A DNA stretch of 64,000 nucleotides, taken from Candidatus Peribacteria bacterium (GTDB lineage Bacteria > Patescibacteriota > Gracilibacteria > Peribacterales > Peribacteraceae). The notes below the pieces were generated by a model, which saw nothing but the letters and a program-made list of their open reading frames with translations, was not told the DNA's origin and ran no database searches. The stretch's first letter is position 1. The number at the start of each line of letters is the position of its first letter. The DNA is taken from the NCBI GenBank assembly GCA_023038255.1, contig CP082927.1, positions 572,146 through 636,145 of the forward strand. The letters are read 5' to 3'. The translations under genes were made by a program, and so were the position numbers. This document shows positions 27,090-50,203 of the stretch, in pieces.

Positions 27090-28253
27090 GTGTTTTCCAC
27101 TGTAGCCGGAATCATCGCTTTACTGGTGCCTTTGTCCTATGGGGCGGAGGGGAAATTCGACGATGTTCCGTCAACCGCCGCTCATGCGGAGGCAATTGAA
27201 TATCTGAGATCCAAAGAAATTATTTCCGGATACAAGGACAATACATTCCGCCCTGAGCGCACAGTCAACCGTGCGGAATTTGTGAAGGTCCTCACAAAGC
27301 TGATGGTCAGCCCGAATGAGATAGATGAATGCACACGGACCAACCGTGACAGATTTACTGATGTCCCCATGAGCAGCTGGTTTGCATCTTTTGTGTGCGC
27401 CGCAAAAGCAAAAGGATTCATCAATGGATATGAAGACAATACGTTCCATCCGGCTGAGACAATGAATATTGCAGAAGCATCAAAAATTCTTGCCGTTGCA
27501 TTTGATCTTCATCTTGGCGAGAAAGATCCAGCTCTGTGGTACAAGCCTTATGTCACAGCGCTTACCGGAGTAAACGCAATTCCCGCAGATGTCCGAGCGA
27601 CCGGTGAATCACTGACACGCGGTGTCATGGCAGACATGCTCTGGCGCCTGAAAGAATCAAAAACAGATCAGCCTGCAGCCAATGAACACGCGCTTATTGC
27701 AGCACAGTGCGATTGGTTTGCCGAAGAGAGCATTCCCCGGGTTGATATGCAGGAAGTGCGCAGAGTCTGGACCAAGTGGATAAATGACGTACGAACCAGT
27801 ATGAATCTTGCGCCCTACACGCAGGATAAGCAGCTCAATAAAACAGCAGTACTCTGGTCACAGCGCTCGAGAGATATCGGAAGCATTACACACAAACGTC
27901 CGGGGCAAACCGCATACTACGATTACAAAGGTATCGAAGGGTGGTTTTCCAAGCAGGACATCGATTTTGCCAATGTGAAAAGTTCCACCTTTACAGAAAA
28001 TATCGGCTGGGGGATTTTCAAATGCAAAAAACAAGATTGCACGCAGGACCTCATTGATTCCATCCGCACAACATTCGATTTCTTTATGAGCGAAAAAGGA
28101 AAAGCATACAGCCCGCATTACAACAGTATCGTGGAGCCACAGTTCCGTCTGATCGGTACAGGAATTTCTGCTGATCCTTCAACGGGAAAATATTTCATCA
28201 CGACGCATTACGGAACATCGATTACATCAAATCCAGATCCAGTGTGTCTGTAA
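27090..28253 (+). CDS. secreted SLH- and CAP-domain protein
   Basis: A 387-aa exported protein. A short signal peptide (VAGIIALLVPLSYGAEG) precedes two S-layer homology repeats (KFDDVPSTAAHAEAIEYL...GYKDNTFRPERTVNRAEF and FTDVPMSSWF...GYEDNTFHPAETMNIAEA), then a partial third. The C-terminal half (from about residue 225) is a CAP/SCP domain: WTKWINDVRTSMNLAPY, AVLWSQRSRDIGSITHKRP, TENIGWGIF and HYNSI. The SLH part should bind it to cell-wall polymer, and the CAP part is of unknown activity. It starts with GTG and is probably leaderless. Confidence 0.85.
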   Translation: MFSTVAGIIALLVPLSYGAEGKFDDVPSTAAHAEAIEYLRSKEIISGYKDNTFRPERTVNRAEFVKVLTKLMVSPNEIDECTRTNRDRFTDVPMSSWFASFVCAAKAKGFINGYEDNTFHPAETMNIAEASKILAVAFDLHLGEKDPALWYKPYVTALTGVNAIPADVRATGESLTRGVMADMLWRLKESKTDQPAANEHALIAAQCDWFAEESIPRVDMQEVRRVWTKWINDVRTSMNLAPYTQDKQLNKTAVLWSQRSRDIGSITHKRPGQTAYYDYKGIEGWFSKQDIDFANVKSSTFTENIGWGIFKCKKQDCTQDLIDSIRTTFDFFMSEKGKAYSPHYNSIVEPQFRLIGTGISADPSTGKYFITTHYGTSITSNPDPVCL

Positions 28254-28355: not shown

Positions 28356-28426
28356 TAAAAGCAAGCACTTTTTTGTCATTTTTGCATCTCGTCCATGTCT
28401 TAACTCTGAACCTTACCCCTTCCTCT

Positions 28427-29167
28427 ATGTCACGATCCTTCCTCACTTTTATAGCCGGCGTAACGCTTGCTATCGCCATTCCGACAATGGCACAAACCTA
28501 TCGCTCCACCTTTCCGGATGTTCCGGCTGATTCGTCATCAGCCGCAGATATTGAACGCATGGCCGAACTCGGCATTATCCGTGGCTACGAAAACGGCTGG
28601 TTTGGACCGAATAATTCAGTCACACGTGCGCAAGTTGCCATTATGCTGAACCGATACGATCAGACGGTGATACAGCCGCTGCGTGATCAGCTGAATGCCA
28701 TCAATAAAGAGTTGGGTTTGAATCAGATGTGTAACGGCCATGTGGTTGGAGACGCATACAAATCTCCCGATGGCTGTAATACATGCACGTGTACCCTTCA
28801 GGGTGAAATCTGCACACTCAGGGCATGTGCACCAACCTCTAAAAGCAGCTCATCCAAATCATCATCACGCGCTTCATCCAAGAGTTCGGGGGCAGTGTGT
28901 GGCAATGCTATCTGCGAAGCGGGAGAGGATCTCTACTGTCCTCCGTGCGAACCCGGAAAAGTCTGCGCCCAGTATTGCATAGCCGGAAGCTGCATGCGTG
29001 ATTGCAGGGCATCAAGCTCGTCTTCCGTGAGCAGTGCGTTTGGGTGTCGGCCGTACATGTGCAATGACGGTACAACAATTCCTGCATGTACCGACGACGG
29101 GCATGTCATTAACTACTTTGCTCCACCCTGCATGACCCACGGAGGCGAATCGCAATCTTCCCGTTGA
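28427..29167 (+). CDS. secreted SLH-domain protein with Cys-rich modules and Ser linkers
   Basis: A 246-aa exported protein. The signal peptide is SRSFLTFIAGVTLAIAIP through AQ. A single SLH repeat (FPDVPADSSSAADIERMAELGIIRGYENGWFGPNNSVTRAQ, read in parts) is followed by a short helix and three Cys-rich modules: CNTCTCTLQGEICTLRAC, CGNAICEAGEDLYCPPC and CRPYMCNDGTTIPACT. Ser-rich spacers (SKSSSSKSSS, SSSSVSS) separate them. The Cys pairs imply disulphides formed outside the cell. The modules resemble small extracellular EGF/VWC-like folds; their binding role is unknown. Confidence 0.75.
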   Translation: MSRSFLTFIAGVTLAIAIPTMAQTYRSTFPDVPADSSSAADIERMAELGIIRGYENGWFGPNNSVTRAQVAIMLNRYDQTVIQPLRDQLNAINKELGLNQMCNGHVVGDAYKSPDGCNTCTCTLQGEICTLRACAPTSKSSSSKSSSRASSKSSGAVCGNAICEAGEDLYCPPCEPGKVCAQYCIAGSCMRDCRASSSSSVSSAFGCRPYMCNDGTTIPACTDDGHVINYFAPPCMTHGGESQSSR

Positions 29168-29174
29168 TGTTCTC

Positions 29175-30005
29175 TTACAATGACCGGAAGGCCTTGCGTG
29201 TGACGATGAGCAGTACGACAGTTGTCAGTACGACTGCAATCCACACCGCAGGGCCGGTTTCCGGCGTGCTGAACGGCGTGTGATTCGAAACGGCAGGAGA
29301 CTGCCCGGACGGCTGGCGGTCAGGCAACGGCATATTGCCGCTTCCGACAGTGTACGGATTGACCGGTACCTGTGTGACAGTGGCAACCGGAGCTGCAGGA
29401 GACAGAGATGCAGCAGAGGACGCAACAGGCGTCACTACGACAGGAGAGGTACTGCTGGATGATGAAGATGATTCCACAATATCAGACGGAACATAGGGAT
29501 CCATCTGTACGCCACCCTGGATAAGAATCTGGCCGCTGACAATATCCGATGTTTTGGAAATATACGGATACGCTCCGGACGTTGCTGTCAGAGGAATCAG
29601 AATGTGCGTGCTGCTGCCCGGAAAAATGGCAGAGGTGACAAAAGGTTTTCCGTCGTCGGTCGGAAGAGTGTCGGAGGAGAGCACATGCGGAATGGAGTCA
29701 TCATTTGTCCAGGTAATAGTGGATCCAGGCTGAACTGTGATTGTGACAGGATCAGCGCCGTTTTCTGTAATATGGACGGTGATCGAAGACGGATTGACCT
29801 GGCCGCCGAGGGAGAAAAGACCGTATCCCTGAAGTGCGGCAACACCCGCAAGGAAGAACAGGAAAATACCGGCAAAAGCGGCAGGACGGCGGTGTGCACG
29901 GACTGGCATGCGTTCAGAATCTGTCTGAGACTGCTTTATGCGAACAGGAACAGCCTGCTCATCGCTGTCGTCAGTAGACTGCCAGTGCGGATGAAGGGTG
30001 GTCAT
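29175..30005 (-). CDS. surface cupredoxin-fold protein with ETGP sorting signal
   Basis: A 276-aa protein with a cytoplasmic tail of about 40 residues, a membrane helix (42-62), a cupredoxin-like domain (75-165: ITVQPGSTITWTNDDSIPH), a Ser/Pro/Val-rich stalk and a C-terminal PETGPA (248-253), helix and RKAFRSL tail. Only His107 of the four copper ligands is kept: the Y-x-Y-x-C-x2-H-x3-M signature reads YPYISKTSDIVSG, so Cys, His and Met are absent. Copper binding is unlikely. Its ATGA overlap with the cohesin gene puts it third in a surface operon. Confidence 0.75.
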   Translation of the reverse strand: MTTLHPHWQSTDDSDEQAVPVRIKQSQTDSERMPVRAHRRPAAFAGIFLFFLAGVAALQGYGLFSLGGQVNPSSITVHITENGADPVTITVQPGSTITWTNDDSIPHVLSSDTLPTDDGKPFVTSAIFPGSSTHILIPLTATSGAYPYISKTSDIVSGQILIQGGVQMDPYVPSDIVESSSSSSSTSPVVVTPVASSAASLSPAAPVATVTQVPVNPYTVGSGNMPLPDRQPSGQSPAVSNHTPFSTPETGPAVWIAVVLTTVVLLIVTRKAFRSL

Positions 30006-31375
30006 ACTTTGGCGCTGAGCTGTCTGCGGAATGCGAGTCCTGTGCCGATGACGGCAGACAAGAGGACAAAGAGCATAACAGTCGATGCGGGGCCGGTTTC
30101 TCCGGACACATTGCCTCCAGTGCGCGGAGTGTTTGGTGCGCGATTAATGGCGCTTGCACTCAATGGAGACGTTGACGTTGCAGGATTACCGACACTGATA
30201 CCAACTTCCTGGCTGAAGTCTGTTTCACGGTTATCTTTCGAGACGCCGCGGACGGCAAAGTAGTACGTCACCCCTTCCGGCAAAGCGCGGATAGTAATGT
30301 TCGTACTGTTCTTGTCCACGCTGCGCTTCTGCAGATACTGTCCGCTGATAGTGCCGTAATACACGTTGTAACCGACGAGATCTGCGGACGGCAGCTTGTT
30401 CCATGCAAGGAAGACAGAACTTCCTTCCGTTGTAACTTTCAGCTGCTGTACCTGGAGCATTTCAAAGACACCAGAAGTCGATCCAGACGGTGCAGAGGAT
30501 GCATTGTCGCCAGCAGATGACACAGATGAGGACGCCAATGATTCAGTGGATGAAGAGACAGAACCAGCGACCGGAGTAGAACTTGCTGTTCCGCCGGTAG
30601 CAGACGGCAAGACCTTCACCAGAAGAGAGCCCGGGGTTGCTGTTGCGCTATTTGTCTCCGTGGAACCATCCATCGTGATGATAGCCGTGTGACTGCCGAC
30701 TGTTCCTGTTGCGTCATAAAACGTCATGGGAACAGCGGTCTGTGTCCCGGGCAGCATGTGCAGGCGGATGCGTGCAACAATAATGCTCTGTCCGTTCTGA
30801 GGAGTTGTTGCAGCGCCGCTGACTTTGATCATACCGTCAGTCGTAGAGAAATCGTTTTCACCCGGAGTCGGTGTCGGGAAGGCATTTGCAACTTCAATCA
30901 ATTCTCCTTCCATGACGGTCGGGTCATACGCAATCCATGCGCGGAAGCGCTGAATAGGTTTGGACGTCGGATTCTTGATGATGAGATCCATGTCGAGTGC
31001 ATCCCCCTCACGCAGTTCAGACGTCTGTCGCGTGAGCGGGTCTTTCACCTCGTACGACGCACAGGAAGAATCCGGTACGGGTGCAACCCCTTCTTTTGGT
31101 GCAACGGCAAACGCTGTGCGGTACTCCGCACTGTCACAGTGCGGACGAAGTTCAAACATAGTGCCCTGAGCTGCAGCATCTGTTGCAGCACCGTTCATTG
31201 CACCATTGTTCGCAGTATTGTTTGTAGACGGGCCAGCAGCGTACTCACGTCCATCGCCAAGCGGCGGGAGCATTTCGAAAGACTGCGCAAATGCCTGTGT
31301 CTGCATAGACAGCACAACGCTGGCTGCAACAAGCAGAGTGCGGGCGCGCCGGCGACAGGTTGTGTGTGTGTTCAT
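30002..31375 (-). CDS. cohesin- and Fn3-domain surface protein with ETGP sorting signal
   Basis: A 457-aa exported protein. A signal peptide (residues 1-30, ending TQAFA) and a low-complexity Asn/Ala segment precede a cohesin-like domain at 108-257 (REGDALDMDLIIKN, FRAWIAYDPTVMEG, DGMIKVSGAAT, IIVARIRLHMLPG). A Ser/Ala linker, a fibronectin type III domain at 306-397 (VFLAWNKLPSADLVGYNVYY, YYFAVRGVSKDNRE) and GETGPA (425-430) with a membrane helix and RRQ tail follow. Cohesins bind dockerins, and a dockerin gene lies 31 bp upstream. A frame extension to 31420 has no signal character. Cohesin is assigned by pattern. Confidence 0.75.
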   Translation of the reverse strand: MNTHTTCRRRARTLLVAASVVLSMQTQAFAQSFEMLPPLGDGREYAAGPSTNNTANNGAMNGAATDAAAQGTMFELRPHCDSAEYRTAFAVAPKEGVAPVPDSSCASYEVKDPLTRQTSELREGDALDMDLIIKNPTSKPIQRFRAWIAYDPTVMEGELIEVANAFPTPTPGENDFSTTDGMIKVSGAATTPQNGQSIIVARIRLHMLPGTQTAVPMTFYDATGTVGSHTAIITMDGSTETNSATATPGSLLVKVLPSATGGTASSTPVAGSVSSSTESLASSSVSSAGDNASSAPSGSTSGVFEMLQVQQLKVTTEGSSVFLAWNKLPSADLVGYNVYYGTISGQYLQKRSVDKNSTNITIRALPEGVTYYFAVRGVSKDNRETDFSQEVGISVGNPATSTSPLSASAINRAPNTPRTGGNVSGETGPASTVMLFVLLSAVIGTGLAFRRQLSAKV

Positions 31376-31406
31376 ATATGTATGTGTATATGGGCGAGAG
31401 AGACTC

Positions 31407-31739
31407 TCAACGGACAGCAATGTCGTTCAGGATGCGGATTGCATCGTCAATGGTGAGCGCGCCGTCACCATTCGGGTCGGCAAGGAGCTCATCAGGGGTT
31501 GCGTCTCTGTAGCCGTTTGCAATTTCCAGAATGGTAATCGCATCGCGCACATCAATGATTCCATCTTCTGAAATATCACCCGTGAGACGTGTGCCCGAGG
31601 CCTCCATCGGTGCAACAGTCTGGATATTGCCGGCAGTTTTAAGTCCCAGTGCGAAGGATGAAACGACAGCGAGTGTGCCGAGTCCGAGGATCGTGACCGG
31701 GAGAGAGTGCCAACGTGTTGTGGAGTGTTTCTTCGACAT
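31407..31739 (-). CDS. membrane-tethered dockerin protein
   Basis: A 110-aa protein made of an N-terminal signal or anchor helix (residues 13-36) and a type I dockerin. The two calcium loops are GDISEDGIIDVRD (Asp55, Ser57, Asp59, Asp63, Asp66) and ADPNGDGALTIDD (Asp88, Asn90, Asp92, Asp99), each followed by the recognition helix (AITILEIANGY, AIRILNDI). No enzymatic module is attached. It is the first gene of the dockerin-cohesin-cupredoxin operon, so binding to the neighbouring cohesin is the natural inference. Confidence 0.85.
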   Translation of the reverse strand: MSKKHSTTRWHSLPVTILGLGTLAVVSSFALGLKTAGNIQTVAPMEASGTRLTGDISEDGIIDVRDAITILEIANGYRDATPDELLADPNGDGALTIDDAIRILNDIAVR

Positions 31740-31859: not shown

Positions 31860-32816
31860 GTGGCACCCTTCTTCCTCTTTACCGGCGAAAACACGTTTTT
31901 GCTCCGTACAGAGCGTCACCGCTGGATGCAGGAATTCCGCAAAAAGCATGGTGAGGATAACTGTACCATTATTGACGGACAGAAATTGACAATCAGAACA
32001 TTACTTGACGATGTAGCAGTTTTACCGTTTCTTGCGGATAAGCGTTTGGTGATTGTCGACACAGTGCCCAAATGTTCACGTGAGGAAGTTCAGGCCCTGG
32101 CAGCAGGAATACATCCTCAGGTCATCGTTGCTTTTTGTGATCCGAAACCAGACAAGCGGAGCAGTGGCGTGAAAGAAATTCTCGCAACGGCAGACGTGAA
32201 AGAATTTGCCCCTTTGAAAGGTTCGGCACTCAGGCAATGGGCAGATACTTTTGCGCGTGATGAAGGAGCAACGCTTGAGCCTGCTGCACGCGATGCGCTG
32301 ATTGAATTTTTGGGAGAAGATATGGATCTGCTCTCACAGGAAATACGGAAGCTCGCTCTCTACGCAACGGGCCGCTCTGTGACACGGATGGATGTAGAAA
32401 TGATGACCATTCCGTCTGATGAGGGCATTGTCTGGCGCATGACGGATTTACTGTGTGAAGGATCTCGTATCGAGGCACTCACGTATGCAAAACGCATGCT
32501 GGACCGTGGCGGTGATGCATATGGACTCTGGGCGATTTTGCTGTCCATGCTGAAAAATCTGGTACTTGTCCGTGCTGCCGTGCAAAGTGGCATGACGTCC
32601 TCCAAAGACATAGCCGATGCGACTGCAGTCCATATTTTTGCACTGCGGTCATTATTGCCCTATGCCAAGCGCATCAAAGACGAAGATACCAAGCGTTTTC
32701 TGGAGTGGGCAGTGCATGCCGATCGGGATTTGAAAACCGGCGTTATCCGCTCGACAGATGAGGCGCCACAGGAGCTGCAGGCATTGATTGACGAGTTTAT
32801 CCTGCACTCGCCGTAA
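31860..32816 (+). CDS. holA: DNA polymerase III delta subunit
   Basis: Clamp-loader subunit that opens the beta clamp. The 318-aa protein fits HolA: FLFTGENTFLLRTERHRW at the start, VAVLPFLADKRLVIVD, a lid region (LRQWADTFARDEG, LIEFLGEDMDLLSQEIRKLALYA) and a C-terminal collar domain (WAILLSMLKNLVLVRA). Like HolA generally, it lacks a functional Walker A. The GTG start at 31860 is supported by the -10 spacing. Confidence 0.88.
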   Translation: MAPFFLFTGENTFLLRTERHRWMQEFRKKHGEDNCTIIDGQKLTIRTLLDDVAVLPFLADKRLVIVDTVPKCSREEVQALAAGIHPQVIVAFCDPKPDKRSSGVKEILATADVKEFAPLKGSALRQWADTFARDEGATLEPAARDALIEFLGEDMDLLSQEIRKLALYATGRSVTRMDVEMMTIPSDEGIVWRMTDLLCEGSRIEALTYAKRMLDRGGDAYGLWAILLSMLKNLVLVRAAVQSGMTSSKDIADATAVHIFALRSLLPYAKRIKDEDTKRFLEWAVHADRDLKTGVIRSTDEAPQELQALIDEFILHSP

Positions 32817-32829
32817 ACCTTTCCACCAG

Positions 32830-33216
32830 TTAATCCATCTGACTCAAAATATCTTCAGCTGCTTTTTCTGCTGCTGTCTGGTCGGCGACTTCCTTACTGC
32901 TGAGTTCTTGGCGCTTCCGGTGCCGTTCTTCCTCGACTCCTTCCAGATCTACCGCTGCCTGTTTCTCGATCTCCGGAGCGTACTTTGCATCAATAGCAGC
33001 CAACTGATCTTTTTCATTGGTAAGAATCGTCCGTAGTTGCGTCACCTGATCGGGGGTCATCACCGGCAGGATATCAATCCAGTACTGTCTCTCTGTGTTT
33101 GTCATGCTCTCCGATGCAAGGACCAGATCCACAAGATCCGGATATTGCTCACGCACCTCGGGCGGAACGGTGACGACGCCTGAAGCGTCCGTTGCAGTTG
33201 TTGTGTCATCACTCAT
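32830..33216 (-). CDS. hypothetical protein
   Basis: A 128-aa acidic, helical protein starting MSDDTTTATDASG. A middle helical segment (MTNTERQYWIDILPVMTPDQVTQLRTIL, read in parts) is followed by a long charged coiled-coil (EKQAAVDLEGVEEERHRKRQELSSKEVADQTAAEKAAED). No signal, membrane helix or known domain is seen. The -10 6 bases upstream of 33216 fixes the start; a frame extension to 33243 falls in the promoter. Confidence 0.65.
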   Translation of the reverse strand: MSDDTTTATDASGVVTVPPEVREQYPDLVDLVLASESMTNTERQYWIDILPVMTPDQVTQLRTILTNEKDQLAAIDAKYAPEIEKQAAVDLEGVEEERHRKRQELSSKEVADQTAAEKAAEDILSQMD

Positions 33217-48811: not shown

Positions 48812-50203
48812 TTAAATCGGCAGTGTTCCCATCTTCGTCTTCGGTGCATCGTTTTCTTTGCGATGCTCGCCGACTTCCATCGGTTTGCCCGTCGTCGGAT
48901 CCACTTCCTGCGCGGTGATAATCAGACGGCGTAAGGTTGTTCCAACGGGCGTACAGGTCATCAGAGTCGCTGTGCGCTTGCTGACCGGCTGATCCAGTAC
49001 CGAAACATCACTTGGTCTGATTTCCTTTTTACCCTCAATCACGTAGCGGAATTTATCACCGCCGTAGTAGACCCAGTATTCGTCACCGACATTCAATTCG
49101 CCAAGGCGTGCGAAGATCGATTTAAATTTACCAGGTGCCCATGGGAAGTAAGAGCTATGACCGGTTACAAAGAAGTTTCCCGCCTGCCCCGGACGTGCGG
49201 TGCCCGGATAGTGCACAACACCGTCCTGCAGCGCGCTTTGAATATCCTCTTCCAGCGCAGCCCAATCTTCTTTGAGGAGATCAGCATTTGACGGCACTTC
49301 AATCGGGACATTCAGATTGAGTTTCGGGATAATCAATCGGTTTTCCGGCGGGCCGACTTCCGGCAAAAATGCCGTCAGGTCACCGCCATCACCTCCTGCG
49401 ACTGCAAGAGAGGGGACATGCTTGAGCTTTTCTGAGAGTGAATCTGTTGCATCTGCCAGCTGTTTGCCGGACGTAACGTCTGTAAGAGGAGTCACATACG
49501 ACTGTGCAATCGACCAGAAGCTCTGGAAGTTGAGTGATACGAACAGGACCACAAAGAGTGAGGCAAATGTGCCGCCGAAACGGACAGTATCGAGCAGAAA
49601 AAGTGTGCCGCGGCCGTACTGCTTCGGTTCGTTCTTTCTGCCCGGAACCCACACAGGCTGTGTCAGGAAAGACCACAGACGGATTGTTCCGTTCTTGCAG
49701 GACGCGAGGATCGTGCGGCTCGCCTGAATACTATCCACAATACTTGCCTGGTACTGACGTGAGCCCTCCGACAGCAAATCATTGGTCACTGCAAACATCT
49801 GGCCGCGTACATCGTTCCAGACATGTGCTGCATCCGCGACTTCTTCCTCACTGAAATTTTCATCCGTCCCTGCAAGCATTGCCGCAATCGGATCATGAAT
49901 GACACTGCGGACCGGTTCCTCTTCGTATTCTTTCTCGGGAGTCGCTTCAACGATCTCCTCGGAGACTGTAAGCATCTGCGCCGTATCGTGCTCCGTATCT
50001 TCAACTGCAGTCCACGGGAGCGTCAGGCTTTTTTCCAGCTCTGCGGAATACCAGAGACCTTCTTCCATATCATTGAAGGATTGCTCTGTACGCACAGCAC
50101 GGAACATCTCTTCTTTCGGGTCGTGCGGGCGGGCGCCCGGGAGAATAATATTCCCGTCGCTGTCGACTGTGGCCCGGTGGTTGGCGTCATGTGAAGGTAT
50201 CAA
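48812..50203 (-). CDS. sortase with a long cytoplasmic N-terminal region
   Basis: A 463-aa membrane transpeptidase. Residues 1-200 are cytoplasmic, acidic and of unknown function. One membrane helix (about 208-228) is followed by a linker and a sortase domain from about 290 (RLIIPKLNLNVPIE). The catalytic residues are His349 (FVTGHSSY), Cys417 (LMTCTP) and Arg425 or Arg426 (TTLRRLII). It should cut sorting signals such as the ETGP motifs at 29175-31375. The start is a TTG at 50203, directly behind TATACT at 50207-50212; a downstream start cannot be excluded. Confidence 0.85.
   Translation of the reverse strand: MIPSHDANHRATVDSDGNIILPGARPHDPKEEMFRAVRTEQSFNDMEEGLWYSAELEKSLTLPWTAVEDTEHDTAQMLTVSEEIVEATPEKEYEEEPVRSVIHDPIAAMLAGTDENFSEEEVADAAHVWNDVRGQMFAVTNDLLSEGSRQYQASIVDSIQASRTILASCKNGTIRLWSFLTQPVWVPGRKNEPKQYGRGTLFLLDTVRFGGTFASLFVVLFVSLNFQSFWSIAQSYVTPLTDVTSGKQLADATDSLSEKLKHVPSLAVAGGDGGDLTAFLPEVGPPENRLIIPKLNLNVPIEVPSNADLLKEDWAALEEDIQSALQDGVVHYPGTARPGQAGNFFVTGHSSYFPWAPGKFKSIFARLGELNVGDEYWVYYGGDKFRYVIEGKKEIRPSDVSVLDQPVSKRTATLMTCTPVGTTLRRLIITAQEVDPTTGKPMEVGEHRKENDAPKTKMGTLPI

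Follow-up and report, generated by a model that had tools for sequence, protein, structure and literature searches.

Few non-covalent protein pairs are known to be as strong as that of cohesin and dockerin domains, which is known chiefly from complexes that degrade cellulose. How CPR bacteria assemble their surface and make contact with hosts is poorly understood. The closest described systems to the locus studied here are the clostridial type I cellulosome pairs, such as CohA2/Doc0917 of C. acetobutylicum (6kgc-6kgf) and the ScaC cohesin with the ScaB dockerin (4uyp/4uyq). Cohesins also occur outside the cellulosome, as in the Archaeoglobus cohesin 2xdh and in C. perfringens GH84C (2w1n), and PMC10066038 cites a review by Peer et al. 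(2009) on such non-cellulosomal cohesin/dockerin modules. Within the phylum of the organism studied here, two papers report that cohesin and dockerin are expressed in Ca. Shapirobacterales, where they are interpreted as a cellulosome (PMC9123182), and that a dockerin protein, SEML1_0315, is essential in a saccharibacterium (PMC10633639). The genome paper on Ca. Peribacter makes no mention of either domain (PMC4736985).

Here we analyze a cassette of three genes, DOC (dockerin), COH (cohesin-Fn3) and CUP (third protein), in a 64,000-nt stretch of a Candidatus Peribacteria genome (hereafter the window, to which all positions refer). The cassette resembles the clostridial cellulosome pairs in its cohesin fold (Z 14-15), in its dockerin with duplicated calcium loops and in the anchoring of surface proteins through the pair, which is predicted here. 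Unlike them, it has a single cohesin and an enzyme-free dockerin with a membrane segment of its own, and it contains neither scaffoldin repeats nor a carbohydrate-active enzyme. With the non-cellulosomal modules it shares a cohesin outside a cellulosome and, as in 2w1n, a cohesin followed by Fn3, but in GH84C the module sits on an enzyme, whereas both halves of the cassette are enzyme-free, lie in one operon and are nearly universal in the family. The proteins reported in PMC9123182 and PMC10633639 are similar in being surface dockerins or cohesins; the available portions of these papers describe no paired membrane-anchored cassette, family-wide conservation or reduction. In the open-access literature searched, we found no description of the DOC-COH-CUP cassette.

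Organization of the Locus

An earlier note on the window had described three adjacent minus-strand genes for a membrane-tethered dockerin, a cohesin-like/Fn3 protein and a cupredoxin-fold protein. The coordinates of the open reading frames (ORFs) bear out this arrangement and its spacing, with a gap of 31 bp between DOC and COH and an ATGA overlap between COH and CUP. The note had also placed the genome among the CPR Peregrinibacteria, rightly, as the named relatives belong to Ca. Peribacteria/Peribacteraceae. The features of the locus are as follows.

31407..31739, minus strand: DOC, stand-alone dockerin with a predicted membrane anchor, 110 aa (ORF and homology searches)
31641..31697, minus strand: hydrophobic segment, DOC residues 15-33; F29 and G32 invariant in 51/51 relatives
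31599..31637, minus strand: juxtamembrane motif, DOC residues 35-47, [TS]AG[DE]-V..x..A; A47 invariant in 51/51
31419..31580, minus strand: dockerin domain, DOC residues 54-107, two calcium loops
30002..31375, minus strand: COH, cohesin-Fn3 protein, 457 aa, with an N-terminal signal peptide and a C-terminal sorting-like tail
31286..31375, minus strand: likely signal peptide, COH residues 1-30 (...QAFA/QS), poorly conserved (read from sequence)
30602..31072, minus strand: cohesin domain, COH residues 102-258 (profile and structure model)
30200..30463, minus strand: Fn3 domain, COH residues 305-392 (Pfam, structure model)
30005..30118, minus strand: C-terminal tail of COH, GETGP and membrane segment (TM); family consensus SAxIGTxxAxRRQ
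29175..30005, minus strand: CUP, third protein, 276 aa
29517..29789, minus strand: cupredoxin-like region, CUP residues 73-163 (Cupredoxin_1 E 0.0012, below cut-off)
48812..50203, minus strand: sortase, 463 aa, candidate processor of TG-P tails

The identical three genes stand in identical order throughout the whole family, which argues against a chance association. A scan for promoters and terminators gave no signal above chance. On the DOC side, the cassette adjoins a divergent 318-aa ORF at 31860, beyond which the ORFs at 32830, 33276 and 33911 are conserved and accompany the cassette in most relatives; we take the ORFs at 31860, 33276 and 33911 to resemble holA, greA and carB. Two surface-like ORFs on the plus strand (27090-28253 and 28373-29167) also lie beside the cassette and converge with it. 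Both appear to contain SLH-like repeats, and the ORF at 27090-28253 looks YkwD-like as well.

Domain Assignment of DOC and COH

The calcium loops of DOC read D55-x-S-x-D-G-x-x-D-x-x-D66 and D88-x-N-x-D-G-x-x-T-x-x-D99. In an alignment of relatives, loop positions 1 and 12 are retained in 50-51 of the 51 distinct DOC sequences, and positions 3, 5 and 9 are mostly D, N, S or T. The window DOC reaches 14.8 bits against Pfam Dockerin_1 (PF00404), below the cut-off of 22.9, and several of its relatives score above this cut-off. A phmmer search of the PDB with DOC matches the solved dockerin 6kgc_B (1.9e-4), and the DOC family profile matches the dockerins 8ajy, 2y3n and 6kgc at about 1e-5, along with some EF-hand proteins. 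At the level of sequence, the phmmer match, the family profile and the retained loop ends confirm the previous call of a dockerin, with two calcium loops predicted to be intact, for which Pfam alone is weak. One exception in the family is L059:6809-7153 (G027), in which loop 1 of the dockerin is degenerate.

The window COH scores 17.2-19.5 bits against Pfam cohesin (PF00963), below the cut-off of 24.1, and COH relatives of the same family and of the same class pass it. Cohesins make up the majority of the PDB matches of the COH family profile. The cohesin part of the AlphaFold model of the window COH matches 6kgd_A (Z 14.0, 2.3 A over 135 residues), and the model of a COH homologue matches 4uyp_A (Z 15.1). 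The Fn3 domain lies above its Pfam cut-off (2e-7), and the corresponding part of the model matches Fn3 domains. The cohesin domain is preceded by a conserved strand, LRPHC (about residues 76-80), and the cysteines C80 and C105 are conserved. The earlier note would have given up the cohesin call for a beta domain that matched non-cohesin folds only; the model of COH matches cohesins, and its predicted fold is the cohesin beta-sandwich. With the structure-model matches, the relatives over the Pfam cut-off and an Fn3 domain over its own, both the cohesin and the Fn3 calls stand.

CUP consists of an N-terminal motif (HP.W.ST), a TM (42-60), a cupredoxin-like domain, a Ser/Pro-rich linker and a PETGP + TM tail. 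Its score against Cupredoxin_1 is 19.2 bits, with a cut-off of 27. The Cys/His copper ligands are absent from every aligned CUP relative, none of which has a Cys/His pair in the C-terminal loop, and a single His is present in many aligned members. Given this lack of ligands throughout the alignment, CUP is unlikely to bind copper, and we rejected the reading of CUP as a copper protein. What remains of the initial cupredoxin call is a cupredoxin-like domain, below the Pfam cut-off and lacking copper ligands.

Membrane Segments, Tails and Sortases

DOC contains a single hydrophobic segment, at 15-33; that of COH is C-terminal, at 431-449, and CUP has two, at 42-60 and 250-268. The mean pairwise identity of DOC in the family is 35% for the membrane segment (16-34), 45% for the juxtamembrane region and 47% for the dockerin, and that of COH is 19% for the signal peptide, 36% for the cohesin, 54% for Fn3 and 43% for the C-terminal tail. 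The DOC anchor is thus conserved nearly as well as the dockerin and the COH tail better than the cohesin, with the signal peptide at 19%, which fits anchors that have a job. The identities of 35% and 45%, together with the invariant F29, G32 and A47, indicate that the N-terminus of DOC evolves in a way unlike that of an ordinary signal peptide. We infer that it is a membrane anchor, perhaps with a helix-helix contact. Judged from its consensus, the COH tail does not look disposable either.

At the C-terminus of both COH and CUP, ETGP is followed by a hydrophobic segment and then by basic residues. The ETGP anchor that the earlier note had ascribed to the two proteins is therefore present in both, but family-wide it gives way to a looser tail, x-x-T-G-[PAILV] with a TM and a basic end, without the LP of LPXTG. 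These tails resemble those of LPXTG sortase-anchored proteins in the C-terminal x-x-T-G-P, the hydrophobic segment, the basic end and the presence of sortases in the genome. They differ from them in the missing LP and in the strong conservation of the COH membrane segment itself (SAxIGTxxAxRRQ). The genome of the window (G000) encodes two sortases, one in the window and the second elsewhere, and sortases are present in 18/18 genomes tested. The hydrophobic segment of DOC and the tails of COH and CUP make a membrane tether, as proposed before, probable.

Conservation of the Cassette in Ca. Peribacteraceae

DOC has a match in 33/35 genomes of the family set. The two negative genomes are G034, which is 66% complete, and G019 (L050), which has COH without a detectable DOC. 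Among 39 named loci, which overlap the 35-genome set, DOC lies directly upstream of COH in all 39, and the third gene lies downstream of COH in 38, the exception ending at a contig edge. The neighbourhood search in relatives that the earlier note had called for thus finds the three-gene set and its order kept across Ca. Peribacteraceae. A contig in a record titled Kiritimatiellales (L145) also carries a complete Peribacteraceae cassette and is probably mis-binned. In-frame TGA codons are found in two cohesin-Fn3 homologues, 2 in L064:6493-8225 (G044) and ~10 in G045:C12:6208-7017, which is what one would expect of genomes that translate TGA as an amino acid.

Searches of the window's own genome detected one cohesin and one dockerin, so that each is the only detected partner of the other. 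A second dockerin was not found in these searches, and hence no dockerin-bearing enzyme. The previous remark that the dockerin carries no enzyme is right, as DOC has no catalytic domain and the genome has no detected dockerin-bearing enzyme.

Long Forms in Relatives and Reduction in the Window's Lineage

The operon of other families in the class codes, in this order, for long proteins, a cohesin lipoprotein, the cohesin-Fn3 protein and the third protein. The long proteins have 559-2459 aa, most of them with an N-terminal hydrophobic segment; most carry a C-terminal dockerin or dockerin-like loops, and several contain Big, TIG, DUF11 or TSP_3 domains. The cohesin lipoprotein has about 190-240 aa and a lipobox Cys. 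One genome of the window's own family, G452, keeps the long set, with a 565-aa dockerin protein, a 1320-aa Ig-like protein, a cohesin lipoprotein, the cohesin-Fn3 protein and the third gene, and the N-terminus of its 565-aa dockerin protein (SFVLGLKT...EA) matches DOC. In the tree of cohesin-Fn3 proteins, the 34 members of the short-dockerin lineage form a clade (support 0.99) with G452 as its sister (joint clade 0.87).

Comparison of these sequences shows a reduction in the window's lineage, which has lost the giant protein and the cohesin lipoprotein and in which the dockerin protein has shrunk to an anchor and a dockerin. The giant protein and the cohesin lipoprotein co-occur, being present in the identical 11/41 genomes. 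This pattern is suggestive of two cognate pairs, one lost whole and the other trimmed in the window's lineage, and the joint loss of the giant protein and the cohesin lipoprotein may have been a single evolutionary event.

Proposed Mode of Action and Alternatives

We consider that the cassette probably represents a cohesin-dockerin module, reduced and free of enzymes, that works as a clamp in cis on the surface of Peribacteraceae cells. DOC would be held in the membrane by its N-terminal segment and would display the dockerin outside the cell. For COH, we envisage export by way of a signal peptide that is then cleaved off, and retention by the C-terminal TG-P/TM tail, which would either stay in the membrane or serve for attachment by sortase. 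DOC and COH would most likely bind each other in cis, the dockerin being folded by calcium, and the cohesin-Fn3 arm would thereby be clamped to the membrane beside CUP, a putative third envelope component with two hydrophobic segments. The operon of the relatives probably serves to fasten long Ig-like proteins of the surface to membrane-held cohesins by way of the C-terminal dockerins of these proteins; in the window's lineage, the ectodomain of the dockerin protein was deleted and the giant protein and the cohesin lipoprotein were lost, so that the clamp alone would remain. Tentatively, we go further and propose a pure envelope clamp, in which the dockerin, embedded in the membrane, would hold on to a cohesin arm that is anchored on the same cell by sortase or in the membrane, as a conserved enzyme-free surface part of CPR bacteria and a remnant of a phylum-wide fastening of giant proteins.

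A natural in-frame read-through of DOC into COH in a relative (L020), with the stop read as Gly, was used to model the pair as a fusion. The AlphaFold pTM of the fused DOC-COH is 0.62, against 0.60 for a control (the window cohesin + Fn3, for which no docking is expected), so the score does not separate the pair; the pLDDT of both domains in the fused model is around 95-98.

The place where DOC ends up bears on two alternatives. With cleavage near A47, DOC would be secreted as a small, soluble protein that plugs the cohesin or serves it as an adaptor, or else the cohesin would capture dockerin proteins of other cells. The invariance of A47 in 51/51 sequences, the variable sequence after it and the similar N-terminus of the long dockerin proteins in relatives are consistent with such a secreted form, but the distance of ~14 residues between the hydrophobic core and A47 is greater than one would expect for a signal peptidase site, and DOC keeps F29 and G32 invariant whereas the signal peptide of COH evolves fast, so we regard this as unlikely. 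If DOC stays on the cell, the dockerin and the cohesin could still pair in trans, between sister cells or with a host. Both proteins are predicted to be surface-located with anchors, the organisms are CPR, and for the essential dockerin-domain protein of the saccharibacterium the authors speculate on the targeting of host-cell glycans (PMC10633639). However, with both halves in one operon of one genome the two proteins would meet in cis first, the dockerin follows the juxtamembrane motif after only ~6 residues, which gives it a short reach, and no partner from another organism has been identified; adhesion in trans is thus quite unlikely. The attachment to a host cell that the earlier note had offered as an example finds no support in the present analysis.

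It might also be that the two share an operon but do not bind at all, the dockerin-like segment only sensing calcium as an EF-hand does and the cohesin-like domain serving only as a beta-sandwich arm. The Pfam scores below threshold and the EF-hand matches of the DOC profile would allow this reading, which is nevertheless very unlikely, as the profile and structure matches are mostly cohesins and dockerins, at least 20 genomes have members of the two families next to each other, and DOC and COH are maintained one to one through the family. Most improbable of all is a classical cellulosome or enzyme-docking scaffold, in which the cohesin recruits dockerin-bearing enzymes. The folds themselves, the expressed CPR cohesin and dockerin interpreted as a cellulosome in PMC9123182, and a cellulosome-like cluster in another Patescibacteria genome (L098) speak for it, but the single cohesin and single dockerin detected in the window's genome, the lack of a detected dockerin-bearing enzyme and the lack of a catalytic domain in DOC speak against it. 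For this genome we rejected the cellulosome reading, as no multi-cohesin scaffoldin and no second dockerin were found. Since the cassette is kept in nearly every member of the family, the fastener that we propose most likely serves to build the cell surface and not a complex that digests cellulose. The dockerin (~60 residues) and the cohesin (~160 residues) are small, so that binding is directly testable in vitro.

Cohesins and Dockerins Elsewhere in the Phylum

In a sample of 287 genomes of the phylum, cohesin matches are found in 78, dockerin matches in 104 and both in 52, with an odds ratio of 6.0 for co-occurrence (p 1.5e-10, not corrected for phylogeny). Cohesin and dockerin lie within 10 kb of each other in at least 20 of the 287. 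A two-component, enzyme-free and near-universal cassette, together with genes linked across the phylum, suggests a general way of surface building in CPR bacteria. In other families of the class, four loci (L092, L093, L105 and L110) have Pfam cohesin matches and no nearby dockerin by the DOC profile; in other classes, this profile missed many dockerins that Pfam found.

Two loci of other classes, L104:3427-7827 (G227) and L109:9320-13508 (G238), each encode a long protein with a dockerin and, after it, two small proteins with cohesins; in G227, one of the small proteins has a C-terminal hydrophobic tail. The plan of both loci is that of the window's class. The cluster at L098:1593-13359 (G123:C27), in a genome of ~1.0 Mb, adjoins pilM and encodes four proteins of 620-713 aa with C-terminal dockerins (one with Apiosidase + CBM6, another being GH5/apiosidase-like), as well as a 939-aa protein in which two cohesins are combined with a dockerin. 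A genome of the same family, G149, has a similar set of cohesin and dockerin matches. Other small genomes are rich in dockerins, with 11 matches in G124 and 19 in G229, where several repeats lie in one 1465-aa frame.
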